This document shows positions 1-15,950 of a stretch of 25,051 nucleotides of DNA, in pieces. The notes beneath the pieces are model-generated. The model worked only from the letters and a program-made list of their open reading frames with translations. It made no database searches and was not told the DNA's origin. This DNA comes from a virus: IMG/VR virus record IMGVR_UViG_3300047320_000157, positions 1 through 25,051 of that record; one strand, written 5' to 3'. Made by a program: the position numbers and the translations under genes. Position 1 is the stretch's first letter, and the number at the start of each line of letters is the position of its first letter.

Positions 1-660
1 GTGCCGAAGGGATCCGACCTATCCACTGGAAGGAGGGTAGCGGGAGAAACTCACTATAGCGTGAACATGCCTGACTTGGTAAATAACGTGATACTGCATC
101 CGAATCCATCTGTAGATATCGCAGCGATATTTTTCCTTCCTTTCGCGAATGCTGTCCCGCAGGACATGCAGCCACGATTCGCCGCACTGAGCGAAAAATT
201 CCACCTCACTCCCCAAGAAAAAACATTCACTCGCACAGTCGAACCTATACTTATGATTGGGTATCCTAATGGGCTTTGGGATACTGCCAATAATCGTCCA
301 ATAGCGAGACGAGGGGTGACAGCATCGCACCCGCTAGATAGCTGGGAAGGTCAGAGGATGTTTGTGATTGATGCAGCTTGCTATAGAGGATCAAGCGGCA
401 GCCCCGTATTCCTTTTCGAGGACGGCATGTTCAGAAATAGCAGAGATGGATTGTCACCAGGTACTCGAACAAAATTAATCGGAGTTTTGTTTTCCGGACC
501 CACTGTAAATAACGAGGGAAGATTAGAGCAGCGGACCATACCCACCAACATATCGGTAGTACCAGTTGTTGAAGGGATGCTTAATCTCGGGTTTGTTGCA
601 CATGCAGACACAATACTTGACTTGAAGGATTTAATTAAGCAAAGGTTAGACGCAGAGTAG
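1..660 (+). CDS. Trypsin-like serine protease, 5'-truncated by window edge
   Basis: This is the C-terminal part of a chymotrypsin-fold serine peptidase. The frame is open from the first base, so the GTG at position 1 is probably not the true start. The catalytic Ser lies in GSSGSP at residues 130-135 (Ser132 by alignment to GDSGGP), and the likely catalytic Asp is D39 in SVDIAAIF. The catalytic His would lie upstream, outside the window. The segment from MIGYPNG (residue 85) to RRGVTASHP is typical of stand-alone bacterial trypsin-like peptidases. No signal peptide can be judged. The gene is on the opposite strand to the phage late operon and is more A+T-rich than it, which fits an accessory or moron gene. 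Its substrate is unknown; a housekeeping DegP-type role is unlikely because no PDZ domain follows the protease domain. Confidence 0.75.
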   Translation: MPKGSDLSTGRRVAGETHYSVNMPDLVNNVILHPNPSVDIAAIFFLPFANAVPQDMQPRFAALSEKFHLTPQEKTFTRTVEPILMIGYPNGLWDTANNRPIARRGVTASHPLDSWEGQRMFVIDAACYRGSSGSPVFLFEDGMFRNSRDGLSPGTRTKLIGVLFSGPTVNNEGRLEQRTIPTNISVVPVVEGMLNLGFVAHADTILDLKDLIKQRLDAE

Positions 661-1631: not shown

Positions 1632-2441
1632 ATGACAATAAAACTTCACGTAGATGGTGCGGCTGTACTCCTTCAGAATGGGCTTGAAACTCCTGCATTC
1701 ACACTGGCGATGGTAACCGCTGCGGCAACTGCTAGGAAGATCAACCCCGAGGGCACACCGTCAAAAATACCGGGCAATAAAAAAACCATGGGCGACAAGG
1801 AGTGCTTCGTTGAGTTTCTTGACTCAGTGATTTCGAGCGCATTGTTTGGTAGCCCGGTAGTGGTTTCGGATGCAGATAAAGAAACTAAACTTTCTGAAAT
1901 CATATACAAACAGTATCGCTGCATGCTAGTGCATGAAGCAAGCCAGCCGGTGCCACTGAGCATAAACAGCTCACCTGAGAAATCTTTTGGCTTCGGCTTT
2001 GAGGGCGGAACGCTAAAACTTGACACCGGCTGGATATACCTAATACTCGAGCATGTAGCTAACCATCCAGAGAATGGACCTGAGTTTGGCATACCGCACT
2101 TTATGATAAAATACCCTGACGGCGTTTCCAAGCAAGAACTGGTACGTTCAACCATGAAAATTTTTGGTGATGATGCACGTTATCCTTTCAACCTGATTAC
2201 AAAAATAATATTCCACTGTAACATTGATTTATCTTTAATCCATGATGAACTAGAGCTAGATCGAACGGTCGCGACCACGGTCAAAAATCACTTCAACATG
2301 GGAATGGTGGGCGCAATCAAATCGGACAATATACTCGACGACAAGCTAAACCTGACTGAATATGGACGATTAATCACCCTCCATCTAGCGACGCAGATAA
2401 AACGAGTCCCTTACTCTCGATATTTTCCCAAGACGTCGTGA
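1632..2441 (+). CDS. Accessory protein with possible HEPN-type Rx4H motif
   Basis: A 269-residue soluble protein with no signal peptide or membrane segment. The start ATG is preceded by AAGGATCGAAC, a reasonable ribosome binding site. I do not recognise the whole protein. Residues 88-104 read as a helix carrying R96-x4-H101 followed by Glu (YRCMLVHEAS), which matches the Rx4-6H signature and the local context of HEPN-superfamily domains, many of which are RNases in toxin or anti-phage systems. The C-terminal half (about 160-260) has no motif that I can name. The gene stands alone on the plus strand, opposite to the phage late operon, and is A+T-richer than it, as expected for a moron or defence-type cargo gene. 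No antitoxin-like partner is adjacent. The HEPN assignment is an inference from one motif. Confidence 0.7.
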   Translation: MTIKLHVDGAAVLLQNGLETPAFTLAMVTAAATARKINPEGTPSKIPGNKKTMGDKECFVEFLDSVISSALFGSPVVVSDADKETKLSEIIYKQYRCMLVHEASQPVPLSINSSPEKSFGFGFEGGTLKLDTGWIYLILEHVANHPENGPEFGIPHFMIKYPDGVSKQELVRSTMKIFGDDARYPFNLITKIIFHCNIDLSLIHDELELDRTVATTVKNHFNMGMVGAIKSDNILDDKLNLTEYGRLITLHLATQIKRVPYSRYFPKTS

Positions 2442-3393: not shown

Positions 3394-4203
3394 TTACGGA
3401 GCTACATGACTCCAGAGGTTGAGCGACTCAGGATGATAAACTTCGAGTTCGGACTTACATTCAATTATGGAAGTAGCAAAATTTTCAGGATCGCTCATAT
3501 TGAACTGATGCAGAATATGAGGCGCATGCTCCCACCACTTGGAGCTTTCTAATAACTCAATGACATCTTGAGAAAAACGGTACTTTATAATTCCGCCTGG
3601 GTTCCCCCCGACAATGGCATATGGAGGCACATCTTTTACAACTATAGTGTTTGCCGCGACAACGGCGCCATTACCGATCTTGACGTTTGATGGTAGCACT
3701 ACATTCGAGCCTATCCATACATCGTGACCTATCTGGATTCCTCCGGTTTTTTGGGGAACCGGAACTGGTCTGAAATTCGGCGTTTCCCCAGCCAGGCCCA
3801 ACGCTTTGATGGAGTGGGCGCGCATGATCTCCCTCTTCCATCGGAAGGAAACGCATGACATAACGGCAGACTCTACCGGGTGCCGGAATCCTAATGTAGA
3901 CAGGCCGCCAGCTATTGACCCATACCGGCCAACGTTACAGCTAACCGGTAGCGGCGACACGATATCGCAAAAAGAGCCGGCGGAATAAATTGCGTTCCCA
4001 GCACCGTTAACGCTAAATGGCTCAGTTAGAGTTTTCTTTTGGCAGGTTATAACCCCACCTACCTTCCATCTAGCTACGATCCTATCCTGAGAATCACTAG
4101 AATCTCTGCTCTGAAATATGGAGTAAGCCTTGAACAGGTCAAGCAACTGTTTATTGACTTTGTATCTGACCAATTCCTTATCTACCGACACAACGTCAAG
4201 CAT
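3394..4203 (-). CDS. Hexapeptide-repeat (CatB/XAT-like) acyltransferase
   Basis: A 269-residue cytosolic protein with a left-handed beta-helix acyltransferase signature: hexapeptide repeats in GGIQIGHDVWIG, then VVLPSNVKIGNGAVVAANT, closing with DVPPYAIVGGNPGGIIKYRF, as in acetyl-CoA-dependent xenobiotic and sugar O-acetyltransferases. The likely catalytic His is in GFRHPVES (about residue 108). I prefer ATG 4203, which has AAGAGG seven bases upstream, over the in-frame GTG at 4209. The family acetylates small acceptors such as sugars, antibiotics or amino sugars; the substrate cannot be read here. It is A+T-richer than the tail genes and is isolated between two opposite-strand genes and a terminator, so it looks like a moron. 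A role in altering host surface polysaccharide is inference. It lacks the membrane helices of the acyltransferase-3 type known from serotype-converting phages. Confidence 0.8.
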   Translation of the reverse strand: MLDVVSVDKELVRYKVNKQLLDLFKAYSIFQSRDSSDSQDRIVARWKVGGVITCQKKTLTEPFSVNGAGNAIYSAGSFCDIVSPLPVSCNVGRYGSIAGGLSTLGFRHPVESAVMSCVSFRWKREIMRAHSIKALGLAGETPNFRPVPVPQKTGGIQIGHDVWIGSNVVLPSNVKIGNGAVVAANTIVVKDVPPYAIVGGNPGGIIKYRFSQDVIELLESSKWWEHAPHILHQFNMSDPENFATSIIECKSELEVYHPESLNLWSHVAP

Positions 4204-4213
4204 CTGCACACCT

Positions 4214-5552: not shown

Positions 5553-7301
5553 TTAGATCAAGCCGAGGCGTGCGGCCGCTACGAAAGGTGCGAGCGCTTT
5601 GTACAGGTTGTGGCGCGGAGCGCCGTACGGGTGGATTGGGTCGGACCAGTTGCCCTCGATGAATCCATCGGTACCGGGCGTAGCGGTCGGCAGGAGGTAG
5701 CCTGCCTCTGGATCGGTCATCGCCCACAGGGGGGCGATCGTGATGTTGGGGTTTGCAGAGTCGCGGGCGGCTGCCTGCATTGCCCGAATGATCTTCACGT
5801 AATGCGATGTCCACAGCGCGTTCCGCTCGGAGTTGCTGGACGTGCCAGGAATGCTCCGGATGATTTTCGCGTCCGGCCAGGCCGCCTTGATCTGGCGGTG
5901 CATCAGCAAGTCATCGGCATAGGTCTGGGCGTACACCTCGTTCACGCCGCGGTCACGGGCGTTGTTTGTGCCCAGGCCGTTAAAGACGATCTGGGGCGTT
6001 CCCAGGTTGAAACGAGACTGATAAAACGCTGGATCGAAAACGTAGCCGTTACGCACAATCTCTGCAGGGTCGGAACCGGTCGCCGCGCGCGCGAAGACGT
6101 TGCGGTCTCGTTTGTCGAAGATATTCATCGCCATGTAGGCCGACTCTTGGCCAGGCGGAAGGATGATCGCCCGGTCGGTGATGGCATTGGTGTAGTCGCC
6201 GGTCTCCCATCCGGAACGGGTTTCACCGACCAGGCCCTGAGCTGCGGTTGTTCCATTGCTGGGCATGGTGCCGATGAACGTTGGAGTGAAGCCCAGTGCG
6301 CGCAAGTACAGGTCGAGCAGCACCGCGCCCTCGTTCTGGCCGATGCTATCGGAAAGGATTAGGACGGTAACCGGAACGGCCGGAGACTGCACGGGGACGT
6401 TTTTCAGGGTGAGCGTCATGAAGTGGCGCGCGTCATGATCTGCGGTAGATCGCAGATTCAGTACTGCCTCTGGCCCGAATTCGGCAGCATTGACGCGAAG
6501 CCGGCGCCCGCTAGAGATTGCCGGCCCCGCCGTGCTCGCCAACGTTGCCACGACGCTGCTTTCAAGCTCACGCCGTGCCAGCAGGCCAGGGACATAAATG
6601 TCCGAATCGCCGGCGGTCGCGATTACCGGCTGGAACAAGACACCGTCCATGAAGGGGAGCGGCGTCAGACCTGAATCTGTAGCCTCGCCCAGTGGGAAAA
6701 CGTCACCTTCAGGACTCGTCACATACACGCCTGGGAGATCGGTGGGCCGAAGCTCCAGCGGGCCGACGATCGTCCTTGTGGAGTCGTTGTAGAATGCGGC
6801 GCCCCCGTCACGATCGCCGATGATCGTCGCCCCGCCCTCTTCACCGATGATGTCCGTATGGATCATGGCCAGCCTTTTTGCCGTCAGACGAAGAACGAGC
6901 CCGCCCTCCGCGTCCGCCACTGTCAGCCGGTTGACCTCAAGCTCGGTATCAACTGTGCGGGTGATGATCCCCTGTATCGCCTTCACAGCATCGACTGACG
7001 GATACGTGTCGACCAGCACAGCTGCGGCGGCGTTGTTCCGATAGAGGTCAACGTAGCCTTCAGGCGCAGTCGACAGCACGCTGAAGTAGCTACCGTTGAC
7101 GGTGCCCGCCAGGCCGAGCGCGGTGGTCGTGTAAATTCCTGCTCCTGCCATTTGCGCTGCCAGGGTGGAAATCACCTTGGCGAGCGTGGGGCGCAGCGTG
7201 CCATCCCCCACATCCATGTTCTTGATCTCGTCGGTCAAGAATAGCTCGTTCAAAATATCGATCAGCGTCGTAAGTCTCGCGAGATCCGTGGCTCCGCTCA
7301 T
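5553..7301 (-). CDS. Tail fibre/spike protein with SGNH (GDSL) hydrolase domain
   Basis: A 582-residue protein. Residues 1-55 are helical and probably attach it to the tail; 55-300 are beta-rich with repeated turn motifs. From about 310 to the end lies an SGNH-hydrolase fold: block I ILSDSIG with the nucleophile Ser319, block III GLGTNN with Asn446 or Asn447, and block V SDPIHP with Asp554 and His557 completing the triad. Tail-borne SGNH domains remove acetyl groups from surface polysaccharides during adsorption. The Gly of the usual GDS is replaced by Ser (SDS), which is tolerated in the family. Translation starts at ATG 7301 after GGAGTAAAT, just downstream of an intrinsic terminator, so expression must come from read-through or an unseen promoter. 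Deacetylase specificity is inferred. Confidence 0.75.
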   Translation of the reverse strand: MSGATDLARLTTLIDILNELFLTDEIKNMDVGDGTLRPTLAKVISTLAAQMAGAGIYTTTALGLAGTVNGSYFSVLSTAPEGYVDLYRNNAAAAVLVDTYPSVDAVKAIQGIITRTVDTELEVNRLTVADAEGGLVLRLTAKRLAMIHTDIIGEEGGATIIGDRDGGAAFYNDSTRTIVGPLELRPTDLPGVYVTSPEGDVFPLGEATDSGLTPLPFMDGVLFQPVIATAGDSDIYVPGLLARRELESSVVATLASTAGPAISSGRRLRVNAAEFGPEAVLNLRSTADHDARHFMTLTLKNVPVQSPAVPVTVLILSDSIGQNEGAVLLDLYLRALGFTPTFIGTMPSNGTTAAQGLVGETRSGWETGDYTNAITDRAIILPPGQESAYMAMNIFDKRDRNVFARAATGSDPAEIVRNGYVFDPAFYQSRFNLGTPQIVFNGLGTNNARDRGVNEVYAQTYADDLLMHRQIKAAWPDAKIIRSIPGTSSNSERNALWTSHYVKIIRAMQAAARDSANPNITIAPLWAMTDPEAGYLLPTATPGTDGFIEGNWSDPIHPYGAPRHNLYKALAPFVAAARLGLI

Positions 7302-11806: not shown

Positions 11807-12291
11807 CAGATGTACCGGAGGCAGGGGGCGAAGGCTAAAGTCCACTTGAGGCGGGGCCAGCCGAGGTTGATCAGATCGAAGTAGCCGGCTTTCAACTGAA
11901 CCGTCGCCCCCTCCATGGTGCCGCTCAGCACTTTCATGTTGTACGGCGCTTCCGCCGGGGCGGTCAGGCTGTTGGATTCGTAGATGCGCATGACCAGGCT
12001 GATTTGCGCCCGGGCCTCCAGCGCTTGGTCAATCATCTGCTGCGCAAAGCCGGTCACGTTGTCGATGGCAAACAGCAGCGACTGGTTGCCGCTGTTGTCC
12101 CGCTTCGGCAGTGCCAGTGCGATCGCGGCCGCGGTGTACGTCACCGTTTGACCGGTTTCCGTAACGGCAGTGATATCGTCGAAGCCCTCGCACAGGTAGA
12201 TCGGCTCAGCCCAAGGCACGGAGTGGAGCGCAAGCGTGCCGATAATCACCGCCCGGCCGCCGGAGGCGTATAGGGTTTCGAGTGCTGTCAT
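11806..12291 (-). CDS. DUF1833-family minor tail protein
   Basis: A 161-residue beta-rich protein beginning [24 protein letters not shown]. The layout ([14 protein letters not shown], then [18 protein letters not shown], then LLFAIDNV) matches DUF1833 tail proteins that occupy the gpL/gpM position between tape measure and NlpC peptidase in lambda-like phages. These probably form part of the tail-tip hub complex. The start ATG overlaps the tape-measure stop (ATGA), and the stop overlaps the next start, so it is translationally coupled on both sides. Confidence 0.8.
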
Positions 12292-14756
12292 CTGCCGACT
12301 CGCTTGCTACCGTAGGTTTGTTCAATGGCTTTCGCGGCGCTACCACCCTGACGGATGTTGGCGACGAAATAATCAATGATCTCTTTGCCAGTCGGCCCAG
12401 TGCGCGACTGTGTTTGGCCCGCTCGGCTCGCATCTTCGTGAATGTTGACTTCGGTCTTTGTGCCACCTGTGCCCTCTTTGGACACCCGCTCAAGGGTGCG
12501 ATCGAGCTTTGCGCTCGTCTGAGCGGTCGTTACTCGCTCACCCTTTTTCAAGTTCCAGGTGCCGTCTGCCGGGACGAAATCAATACCGTCGTGCGCCTGG
12601 CCATCTAACGCAGACCCAACTGCGGTCATCAGAACGCCAGCCGCAGCTGTTGCCGCAATGGCAGCGCCCGGAGCGACCGCCGGCCCCACGTAGGGAATAC
12701 CGATCATTGCTGTAAAGGCACTCAACCCAGCCATTGCGACTTGGGCGGCAGCGTAGGACAAAAGTGCATGGCCTACGGATTGGATGAACGAAGCAGCGAA
12801 GCCTTTGATGTCCACCTTCCCCGTCTCCGCCATCTCAGTGACCGCCGCCGTCAGATTTGAAAATGTCGAGGCACCTACGCTTTGCATGGTTGAGTACAGA
12901 TCCATGCTCGCTTCGGCCTGGGTAGCAAACCCACTGATAAAACCAGCTGTTCCGTTCTGCTGCAGCTGATCGAGGTTTTGGTAATACTCTTCCTGCATTT
13001 TCTGGCGGTTGGCCAAAGCATCTTCCAGCGCGTCAGTTTCCCGCTCGTATACCGAATCGGAAATGTCCTTGTTCTCGTGGCGCTTGCGCAGCTCCTCAAG
13101 CTGGTCCTGGTAATCCTGCTCAATGCCCAGCATCTCCAGCGCACGCTGCTTCACGGTGTCCGTGTCATATGCGTTGAGGAATGGTGCGTCCAGGCCTCGC
13201 TGGTCAATGGTGAGCTGCTGGCTGACATTGCCCTTGAAGTCGCTAACCGCTTTGTCGTCTTCGTTCGCCTGTTTCAGCTTTTTGCGCTGGTCCAGTTCCT
13301 CGGCCAGGTCCTTCAGCCGTTCCTTCTGCTGATCATTCAGGCCGGCGAGCTTGCCCGACTCGAATTCGAACTGCAGCTTGGCGACTTCGGTGGCGTTCTG
13401 CCGAGCGTCAGTCGAAGTGTTGATGAGCTCGATCTGGCGTTTCAGGTCGGTCTCGGTAGAGTCGAACGAGTCCTGGATCTTCTTCGCTGCAGCTGCGGCA
13501 TCGGAAGCAGCCTTCTTCGCCGCCGCACCAGCCGCCGCAATAGCCGCAGCATCCACGCCGCTACCTTTACCAGGCGTAACCTGCACATTGGTCTTGGCCA
13601 GTTCAGCCGCGGCGGCCTTGGCCTGCGCCACGTACTCCTTGAACCGATCGCCCGCCAGGGGCGCCTCCATTTCTTTGCGGATTTCCGCGCCGGCCTCGTT
13701 CGCAATCCCGAAGCTCAGTTGAGCCTGGACGGCCATGTCCTTGGCGCTGGCGGCAAACTCCTTGCTCATGTCGCCGAACGACAGCTGTGACAGCGCCGCG
13801 CTGCCCACCGATCCGGTCTTCTGGATGTAGCCCACCGCAGTGGAGAATGTGCCCACCAGCGTGTTCGCGATGATCTTGAAGACCCTGGCCACCCCGTCGC
13901 CGGCATTCACGATGAAGGCCGTGGCCGTCACCATCTTGTCGCCAAGCTCGCCCACCTGCCCCTTCAGCCCGCCCGCCTCCTTGGCGCTTTGGTTCACGTC
14001 CTTGGAGAACTGCGCCAGCACCGGCAGGAATTCGGCCGCCAGCATGGTCTTGGCCGATGTCAGGTACTGACCCAGCCCAGACAGCTCAATGCCGAATTGC
14101 TTCGCCGCGGCGATGGTCGATTCGTCCATCACCACGCCAGCGTCGAGTGCAGCCTTGCCCAGTTCGTCGAAGGCCTTGCCGCTGTTCCTCAGCAGAGGCA
14201 CCAGCGCCGTGGAATCGTTGGCAATAGCCTCCATGTAGAAGGTCATTTCCTGCTGATTGACGTTGGCCTTTTCCAGGCTCGTCACGTACAGCGCCAGCGC
14301 TTCCTTGCTGTTGAGCTTCTTGAACTGATCAGCCGTCACCCCGACCTTCGGAGCGATGTTGGTGAAGAAGTCCTTCAATCCACCGCCGCCGGTGGAGAGG
14401 AAGTCGCCGACCTTGTCGTTCACATCCTTGAAAATGTCAGAGAGCTTGTCCTGCTCGACGCCCACGGATCGGGCACCGGCGGCGTACTTTTGAAACTCGG
14501 TTGTGCCCAGGCCTGCCAGCGATGCCTGATTGGATATCTCCTTCGCGGCGTTCGCCGAGGAAACGACCATAGCCGTCAACACGGCAGGAATACTGCCGAT
14601 GGCCACGCCGACGCCCTTGGCGAAGTTGTCGAAGGACTTGGCCATTTCAGCGTTGCGCTTCTTGGCGGCCTGGCTGGCCTTGTCCAGCGGCCCAGTAAAC
14701 GCCCCGACCCTGGCGATCAGATCAAGCGTGAGGGTGCCCAGTGATTTCGAGGCCAT
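12288..14756 (-). CDS. Tail tape measure protein
   Basis: An 822-residue tape measure protein that sets tail length and passes into the host envelope at injection. Seen in it: an N-terminal helical region with hydrophobic stretches near 45-70; a central Ala-rich segment (about 385-425) followed by long charged coiled coil to about 590; a hydrophobic region (about 665-735, including ALLSYAAAQVAMAGLSAF) that could form a membrane channel; and the C-terminal motif HDGIDFVPADGTWNLKKGERVTTAQTS typical of lambda gpH-type proteins. The ribosome binding site is GGAGAAA. It follows the frameshifted chaperone gene by 25 bases, the usual order G, GT, H. The length would predict a tail of roughly 120 nm at about 1.5 angstrom per residue. 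Confidence 0.9.
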   Translation of the reverse strand: MASKSLGTLTLDLIARVGAFTGPLDKASQAAKKRNAEMAKSFDNFAKGVGVAIGSIPAVLTAMVVSSANAAKEISNQASLAGLGTTEFQKYAAGARSVGVEQDKLSDIFKDVNDKVGDFLSTGGGGLKDFFTNIAPKVGVTADQFKKLNSKEALALYVTSLEKANVNQQEMTFYMEAIANDSTALVPLLRNSGKAFDELGKAALDAGVVMDESTIAAAKQFGIELSGLGQYLTSAKTMLAAEFLPVLAQFSKDVNQSAKEAGGLKGQVGELGDKMVTATAFIVNAGDGVARVFKIIANTLVGTFSTAVGYIQKTGSVGSAALSQLSFGDMSKEFAASAKDMAVQAQLSFGIANEAGAEIRKEMEAPLAGDRFKEYVAQAKAAAAELAKTNVQVTPGKGSGVDAAAIAAAGAAAKKAASDAAAAAKKIQDSFDSTETDLKRQIELINTSTDARQNATEVAKLQFEFESGKLAGLNDQQKERLKDLAEELDQRKKLKQANEDDKAVSDFKGNVSQQLTIDQRGLDAPFLNAYDTDTVKQRALEMLGIEQDYQDQLEELRKRHENKDISDSVYERETDALEDALANRQKMQEEYYQNLDQLQQNGTAGFISGFATQAEASMDLYSTMQSVGASTFSNLTAAVTEMAETGKVDIKGFAASFIQSVGHALLSYAAAQVAMAGLSAFTAMIGIPYVGPAVAPGAAIAATAAAGVLMTAVGSALDGQAHDGIDFVPADGTWNLKKGERVTTAQTSAKLDRTLERVSKEGTGGTKTEVNIHEDASRAGQTQSRTGPTGKEIIDYFVANIRQGGSAAKAIEQTYGSKRVGR

Positions 14757-14781
14757 TCATTTTCTCCGGGCTTGCATTGCG

Positions 14782-15422
14782 TTAGGTCCACGAATTCTTG
14801 GCCTCATCCAGGCTGATGGCCGCCTCGACCTCGTGAGGCATGAAGTCGTAGATCTTGTAGCCACCGTCCTTTGTGTGGGTATTGGCATAAAGGGCGGCAA
14901 GCACGGCTGCACCCCTTTCCACGCGCATGCCGACATTCAGCGAGCCGCGCAGGGCCCGGTACTTCACCCAGGCCCTGAACTCGATCAGGCTCAGGTTCTC
15001 TTTCGCTTCGGCGATTGTTTTGCCCCCGACGCCGGAGAGGACGAGCTCATGCCAGAGCTCGTCGGTTCCGGTGAGCTGATCGTCTTTCCCATGTTGTTCA
15101 CCTCGGCGATTACCACCATGAGCGCCATGGTGAGGCTGCCGTCCAGCGCCCCGCGCTCAGGATCAGCGTCACCGGTGATATCCCCTACGGTAAAAACCGG
15201 CTTACCCTTTTCGTCGCAGATACTGGCCGCGATGCGGGCCGCATAGGTGTCGACCTTGCCGGTCGCCGACAGCACGTCATTGACTGCGGTCTGGTATCCC
15301 AGCGGCCGCACAAACACAGTGGCAACAATTTCTTCGCCGCCCTGAATCCACTTGATTTCACGCTCAACCGGGCGACCGGTGAAAGCGCCGGCGGCCTTCA
15401 AGCTCTGGATGCTGAGTTGCAT
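14782..15422 (-). CDS. Tail assembly chaperone fusion gpGT (made by -1 frameshift)
   Basis: The frame after the slippery site continues as DDQLTGTDELWHELVLSGVG, then TIAEAKENLSLIEFRAWVKYRALRG and on to KNSWT, stopping at 14782. This second frame has no good start of its own before the internal GTG at 14967, and its T-domain (AEAKENLSLIEFRAWVKYR) begins well upstream of that, so it is made as a fusion: 113 residues of G followed by 100 residues of T, 213 in all. In lambda the G and GT products hold the tape measure and recruit tail tube protein, and their ratio matters for tail assembly. The coordinates cover both frames. Confidence 0.8.
14991..15422 (-). CDS. Tail assembly chaperone gpG (unshifted product)
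   Basis: A 143-residue chaperone. MQLSIQSLKAAGAFTGRPVE is the usual start of this family in Pseudomonas-type siphophages, followed by a conserved region (GGEEIVATVFVRPLGYQTAV). After residue 113, beyond the slippery site, the unshifted C-terminus is Ser/Pro/Lys-rich (SSPEPTSSGMSSSSPASG...) and looks unstructured, as expected for sequence that must encode T in the other frame. The ribosome binding site AAGGAA overlaps the stop of the tail tube gene region, nine bases before the start. Confidence 0.85.
   Translation of the reverse strand: MQLSIQSLKAAGAFTGRPVEREIKWIQGGEEIVATVFVRPLGYQTAVNDVLSATGKVDTYAARIAASICDEKGKPVFTVGDITGDADPERGALDGSLTMALMVVIAEVNNMGKTISSPEPTSSGMSSSSPASGAKQSPKRKRT
15084..15090 (-). 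promoter_or_regulatory. GGGAAAG slippery site for -1 ribosomal frameshifting
   Basis: On the minus strand the G frame reads ATG-GGA-AAG, giving the heptamer G-GGA-AAG (15090 to 15084), the same sequence used in phage lambda G/T. Slipping back one base gives GGG-AAA-GAC and enters the T frame, which stays open for 100 further codons. The G frame continues to TGA at 14991-14993. Confidence 0.85.
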
Positions 15423-15431
15423 GGTTGTTCC

Positions 15432-15950
15432 TTAAACGGTGGTCTTGGGGATCCAGGCAGAGCCGCCGGAGCGCTGGATGGTCGCTGCCGTGCTGACTAC
15501 GGTGTTGGCAGCAAAGTCGAAGGGGAAGTCCGAGACGTAGCCCTCGAACACGAACCAGGTACGCGTGGCCGGCAGCTCGAAGTCGTCACCCTCGGCGTTC
15601 AGGGTGGGCAACGCTGTATTCTCACCAGAAGCGTCTTTTGGGCCATCAGACCAGCCAACCGCCCACTTGATAGCCGTCTCACCATCCGCCTCGGACAGCT
15701 GGTGCAGGCGGACGTGACTTGCGACAGCGGGATCTGCACTTACAGTGAGCGCAGCCTGCCCCGGAGTCCGAAGGCCCTTTTTATACTTGCGCACTAGGTC
15801 GCTGAGGCAAGTATCGTCAATAGGATCTGCAGGGTTGCCACCAGGGTTGAAAGCAGTGGCGCACTCCACCTCCATGACGGTCAGCGGTCCCGTTCCAGTC
15901 AGCGGGGGCGCCAGCGCGAATACCTGGGTACCTTGGGTCAAAATCGACAT
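15432..15950 (-). CDS. Major tail tube protein
   Basis: A 172-residue beta-rich protein, [20 protein letters not shown], then [20 protein letters not shown], then a segment [14 protein letters not shown]. Size, composition and position (between DUF3168 tail terminator and chaperone G) identify the tail tube subunit that stacks around the tape measure. I chose ATG 15950 because TGGAGAAAGCC precedes it; a longer frame to 15989 would run through a terminator stem. The terminator cassette upstream resembles those at 3.36 and 7.32 kb. Confidence 0.85.

Follow-up and report, generated by a model that had tools for sequence, protein, structure and literature searches.

The window analysed here, a virus record of 25,051 bases considered over its whole length, almost certainly encodes programmed -1 ribosomal frameshifting like that of lambda G/GT. 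The site belongs to the tail module of a tailed phage or prophage whose head module is of the HK97 type. Our reading is drawn from features of the sequence: the open frames and the slip site, the families and order of the genes, the conservation of the arrangement among relatives and the change of the selected frame. Frameshifting of this kind is already known from lambda and annotated in HK022 and HK97, and the window is a further example, clear but ordinary. Because the closest phage records by DNA are D3-group Pseudomonas phages (66-68% identity), and because two of three genome loci that hold relatives lie in Pseudomonas, we infer a Pseudomonas-type host. The features on which the argument turns are as follows.

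15432..15950, minus strand: major tail (tube) protein, upstream neighbour of G (phrog_158, E 6.6e-34)
14991..15422, minus strand: gene G, predicted tail assembly chaperone, 143 aa unshifted (PF16459, E 3.2e-32; phrog_1749, E 1.3e-50; structural match 2OB9)
15098..15104, minus strand: Shine-Dalgarno (SD)-like GAGGTGA, 7 nt 5' of the heptamer, possible stimulator on weak evidence
15084..15090, minus strand: slippery heptamer G/GGA/AAG, with a -1 slip to GGG/AAA; its GGA and AAG codons are constant in relatives
14991..15083, minus strand: 0-frame G tail past the slip, 30 aa, Ser/Pro-rich, not conserved, with stop
15032..15071, minus strand: hairpin of 9 bp and 5 bp, about -26 kcal/mol, about 20 nt past the heptamer
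14782..15084, minus strand: T domain in the -1 frame, 100 codons and stop, reached via the slip (PF06223; phrog_337, E 2.7e-21)
14782..15422, minus strand: predicted G-T fusion, 213 aa (frame translation)
12288..14756, minus strand: tape measure protein, downstream neighbour (phrog_2854, E 1.9e-270)

The heptamer GGGAAAG lies near the 3' end of G on the minus strand, which the earlier note left unnamed, and in the phase that this note had claimed for it, the 0-frame codons there being ATG-GGA-AAG. It is the sole copy in the window, for which 3.2 would be expected by chance over both strands; the motif is perhaps avoided elsewhere in the window, a deficit that is not significant alone. The -1 frame is open across the site, beginning just past a TGA (15159-15157) and ending with the stop at 14784-14782, and we count 100 codons past the slip, as had been predicted, so that the fusion would comprise exactly 213 residues, G contributing 113 of them and T 100. 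The predicted low-complexity end of unshifted G is likewise present as 30 Ser/Pro-rich residues after AAG, probably a by-product of overprinting, and the length of this 0-frame tail ranges from 3 to 48 codons among GGGAAAG loci. An in-phase heptamer alone is little proof and is not rare, because 22 genes of the window, with 6,772 codon positions, contain 15 perfect in-phase X_XXY_YYZ sequences. It is the T domain, lying in the -1 frame from the site onward, and its conservation in relatives that exceed chance. At one related locus, L072, two slippery sequences overlap at the slip site (heptamer at 1081-1087), TTTGGGA and GGGAAAG, both in phase.

By their family matches, G is a tail assembly chaperone and T a member of lambda's T family. 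In a Pfam profile search G scores 111.3 bits against PF16459 (TAC_13), for which the curated cut-off is 28.8; this is its sole Pfam match at E<=1, and the lambda G family PF06894 gives none. The -1 frame past the site carries the T-like domain that the earlier note described, matching PF06223 (Phage tail protein T) at 33.8 bits against a cut-off of 25.9 (E 4.5e-08) as well as phrog_337 and phrog_5297. A structural model of G, built with 25 sequences (pLDDT 89.8), suggests the fold of the HK97 tail assembly chaperone; among solved structures that protein's entry, 2OB9, matches best (Foldseek probability 0.99, E 0.011, TM 0.48/0.51). VIA-align places 2OB9 at Z 8.0 (rmsd 3.5, 96 aligned; next entries Z 5.2 and 4.1), a value at about the level of chance arrangements, and the assignment to the HK97 fold leans also on the family match. 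A search of the G profile against PDB sequences returned two matches, the best at E 0.11, neither named as a phage protein. The T model is predicted to be helical with lower confidence than that of G (pLDDT 75.9) and finds nothing in the PDB better than E 3, which does not establish a new fold. The gene order on the minus strand, tube protein, G, T and tape measure protein, is that of the lambda system.

Other genes in the window include one at 3394-4209 (minus strand) for a hexapeptide-repeat acyltransferase (PF00132) that falls below the cut-off for all 25 NCBIfam families listed; as a guess, it is possibly a surface-modifying (seroconversion) gene. Near it, at 5553-7301 (minus strand) and in the tail-fibre position, a 582-aa protein has a weak GDSL-esterase match under the Pfam cut-off. 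Two frames on the opposite strand, a trypsin-like one at 1-660 (plus strand; PF13365) and one at 1632-2441 (plus strand) with no match in Pfam or NCBIfam, could represent flanking host DNA or cargo at a prophage edge.

Relatives preserve both the site and the relation between the frames. We pooled 296 loci from IMG/VR, phage and genome sources, including the window and excluding two same-contig duplicates and re-fetched copies, with near-identical copies remaining. T lies in the -1 frame in all 295 loci that have both G and T, the remaining one (L295) being cut off by a contig end. Similarly, among 398 Pseudomonas genomes, 55 contain a total of 58 PF16459 places, and T is at -1 in 58 of 58. 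Order- and phylum-wide searches added 13 loci, of which seven have T at -1, one at +1 and five no T match. The +1 case is a distant locus (L314), one of the eight with both parts, where T sits behind a run of nine A residues about 100 nt before the G stop; this could reflect -2 shifting, transcriptional slippage or an indel.

At the site itself, comparison across related phages, a check the earlier note had proposed, finds exact GGGAAAG in 49 of 52 representatives (90% identity clusters, window included), with GGGAAAA, AAAAAAC and CCCAAAG once each; codon use in these G genes predicts GGGAAAG in only about 1.3% of cases each if the Gly-Lys pair alone were kept. Heptamers that could not slip, which that note had said would speak against it, are absent from the window's subfamily: among its 136 members, window included, there are 130 GGGAAAG, four GGGAAAA and two AAAAAAG. 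Synonymous differences at GGA and AAG number 0, against 81 and 63 expected (147 pairs, 44 sequences), making these the lowest of 83 testable codons. In the 60 nt upstream of the heptamer, synonymous and nonsynonymous single changes stand at 1145:144 in the 0 frame; in the 60 nt downstream the -1 frame has 633:317 and the 0 frame 164:789, figures that are descriptions and not exact probabilities, since the sequences compared are related and partly near-identical and significance is overstated. The frame under selection, as read from these codon changes, thus changes at the heptamer, and both site and frame relation are kept by selection on codons.

Alternatively, T could be a separate gene, translated from its own codon in the -1 frame (for example GTG at 14967) by re-initiation or coupling, and the earlier note had named a conserved start of T as grounds for abandoning the frameshift. 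T is annotated in this way in 13 of the 15 phage records that we fetched from 77 matching (of the other two, HK022 is joined and one has neither gene annotated), phrog_5297 is a 63-aa family that spans only the C-terminus of T, and a start codon does precede the conserved Trp of T in 32 of 289 loci. However, in the other 257 of these 289 loci, the window among them, the T frame contains no ATG, GTG or TTG from the preceding stop up to that Trp (6 of 295 have no such anchor), and the window's own first T-frame start lies at +123 past the heptamer, within the T domain. The starts annotated in the 13 records vary widely, being CTG, GTG or ATG at +33, +45, +51, +165, +168 or +186, a scatter expected of gene callers where there is no real start. 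Furthermore, the -1 frame is already under selection in the 60 nt past the heptamer. We therefore consider a separately initiated T highly improbable, and the earlier warning that an annotation of G alone, or of a short separate T, would be wrong is borne out. Still further from credible is that the change of frame stems from gene decay or from a mistake in sequencing or assembly. As an IMG/VR-type virus record the window comes without reads for checking, but the frame relation recurs at 294 further loci taken from isolates, prophages and metagenomes, and this conservation refutes the idea.

Under the programmed frameshift that we favour, most ribosomes would read GGGAAAG in frame and stop at 14991, yielding G. 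In a minority, tRNA-Gly and tRNA-Lys on GGA and AAG would move back by one base and pair with GGG and AAA instead, yielding the 213-aa G-T product. By analogy with work on lambda, slipping would have an efficiency of a few percent, G and the G part of GT would bind the tape measure protein, T would recruit the tail tube protein, and both chaperones would leave before tail maturation.

Whether the heptamer acts with help from its surroundings is a separate matter. Dependence on the upstream SD-like GAGGTGA, on the downstream hairpin or on both, in the manner of dnaX, seems to us unlikely. When the region is scanned in 126 windows of 50 nt, just two are more stable than the window's hairpin, at about -26 kcal/mol, and in GGGAAAG relatives the first 90 nt are on average slightly more structured than expected (z -0.79). 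However, the hairpin begins about 20 nt past the heptamer, which is far for a classical downstream stimulator, and its own z (-1.5) is less extreme than that of the window's downstream control stretch (-2.4). A first stem test on 50 sequences indicated more stability than in synonymous shuffles, with z of the mean of -3.6, -2.0 and -5.7 for 45, 60 and 90 nt (helix pairs z 3.3, energy z -1.7), and the same test on 59 GGGAAAG sequences gave per-sequence z of -0.52, -0.28 and -0.79 for these lengths. Six further 90-nt windows along T gave z of -0.17 to -0.73, the range within which all eight windows other than the first 90 nt fall; the excess of structure along T is slight and diffuse, with no local element. 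A Trp-anchored 54-nt test, set against synonymous shuffles, returned a mean z of 0.00 for the hairpin stretch in 59 dereplicated GGGAAAG representatives, window included, and we dropped a downstream stem-loop as a conserved stimulator. The downstream mRNA structure that the earlier note suggested looking for is thus present in the window but not conserved in its GGGAAAG relatives, which lack the conserved stem-loop of a dnaX-type site, and an Rfam search of 14600-15600 found nothing up to E 1. The hairpin is probably a by-product of coding for the conserved DELWHELV, because this peptide is nearly palindromic at the codon level.

The upstream motif is weakly supported as a stimulator by the sequence comparisons. 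Of 91 stretches along G, the one with GAGGTGA ranks first for low mean anti-SD energy (z -2.85 when 50 relatives are compared with synonymous recoding), but the Glu codon is not synonymously constrained to GAG over GAA (ratio 1.02), and the mean anti-SD energy of the GGGAAAG group (-8.8) is barely below those of the A_AAG (-8.2), AAAAAAA (-8.0) and AAAAAAC (-7.2) groups. The position of GAGGTGA is plausible for an SD stimulator, because a passage of PMC4066793 describes a search for such stimulators 6-17 nt upstream.

The lambda G/GT frameshift was reportedly studied by Levin in 1993 and by Xu in 2004, 2013 and 2014. We fetched the lambda site and found GGGAAAG in identical phase, as the earlier note had said, and lambda also has in common with the window its gene order and T family, PF06223. 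It differs in that lambda G belongs to PF06894 and the window's G to PF16459, and in that the window's 0-frame tail continues for 30 aa past the slip, unlike lambda's. According to portions of PMC5009743, the tape measure protein is bound in lambda by both gpG and gpGT, the tail tube protein by T, G_GGA_AAG is highly shift-prone in E. coli, and a 30:1 ratio is crucial, which agrees with the claim that the G/GT ratio controls lambda tail assembly. Other close systems include HK022 gp13/gp14 (AF069308), 57.5% identical to the window over the fusion, whose G likewise belongs to PF16459 and has GGGAAAG at the same codon, with an annotated -1 join and a longer 0-frame tail (48 codons, compared with 30 aa), and orf17/orf18 of Pseudomonas phage D3, 67.8% identical over the fusion, with the same heptamer and phase, a 0-frame tail of 6 codons and two annotated genes, T being started from a CTG. 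HK97 gp13, whose chaperone structure is the best structural match to the window's G, also has an annotated -1 join, whereas its G belongs to PF06222. Frameshifting of 6-7% was measured for an HK97-like chaperone cluster, as stated in a section of PMC3711429, and Xu et al. 2004 surveyed 28 phages, as cited in an excerpt of PMC10885494.

Our comparison also extends to sister subfamilies of PF16459, assigned by best profile score, which use other slip sites. One has A_AAA_AAC at 57 loci and a bare A_AAG tetramer at 48 (three more loci with a spurious computed heptamer were reassigned to the tetramer), and the other has A_AAA_AAA in 44 of 51 loci. A_AA.G is given as the most shift-prone tetramer in E. 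coli in a part of PMC4066793. The 0-frame stop follows directly after A_AAA_AAC in all 58 pooled loci with that site, L034 included, and stands one codon past A_AAG in 48 of 48; a distant locus, L308, has A_AAA_AAC 10 nt before the 0-frame G stop with one codon between, unlike those 58. Across 113 representatives compared with synonymous shuffles, the mean stem-loop z is -2.79 for A_AAA_AAC (n=17; the distant L034 at -3.57), -2.20 for A_AAA_AAA (n=22), an intermediate -0.73 for A_AAG (n=11) and 0.00 for GGGAAAG (n=59), with single values of 0.50 and 0.54 for A_AAA_AAG (n=2) and -0.54 for GGGAAAA (n=1); in a downstream control stretch the four groups with n above 2 range from -0.06 to -0.49. 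In the A_AAA_AAC and A_AAA_AAA lineages the stem-loop lies at the T codons for D-E-x-W-H-E-L and is kept by synonymous codon choice. Its covariation is modest: of 500 shuffles, 22 reach the sister-clade score, 58 its pairs changed on both sides and 376 its further pair types, while the register itself pairs at 90% and slid registers at 25-59%. Among individual members with A_AAA_AAC or bare A_AAG sites (L134, L138, L139, L141-L143, L147, L151 and related loci in Pseudomonas prophages and IMG/VR), most have a stem-loop, with energies per 54 nt between -11 and -31 kcal/mol in those shown.

These patterns lead us to suggest, tentatively and with rather more doubt than conviction, that PF16459 lineages may have kept their G-to-GT output while the recoding signal switched types, with the strengths of slip site and stimulator trading off around a frameshift set-point; the correlation between slip site and structure is confounded with clade, and the switch may have run in either direction. 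Consistent with such a trade-off are L034, which has A_AAA_AAC with a stem on a long branch on the GGGAAAG side of the tree, and L293, which has AAAAAAG without a stem beside A_AAA_AAA rows at an unresolved fork. Against it stand L035, whose CCCAAAG is shift-prone in E. coli yet accompanied by a stem (z -3.2), and L292, an A_AAA_AAA locus with z just -0.65. A stem mark of z<-1.5 is absent in 12 of 52 weak-site rows and present in 3 of 65 strong-site rows, one of these three being the window (z -1.52). A phylogenetically independent test had too few contrasts, with three changes of site strength and at most three independent pairs, one of them well supported. Four near-identical, stemless GGGAAAG loci (L298-L301), best scored by the A_AAA_AAA profile, were rejected as a contrast, since the tree places L298 on the GGGAAAG side.

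For the window, the immediate consequence is a corrected annotation, which would otherwise list G alone or a shortened T with an invented start. More broadly, the bare tetramers of a sister subfamily suggest that frameshift finders that look for heptamers alone would miss A_AAG sites. The same tail genes, equipped in different lineages with different slip sites and possible stimulators, offer a natural series in which to consider how constant the ratio of G to GT is held.
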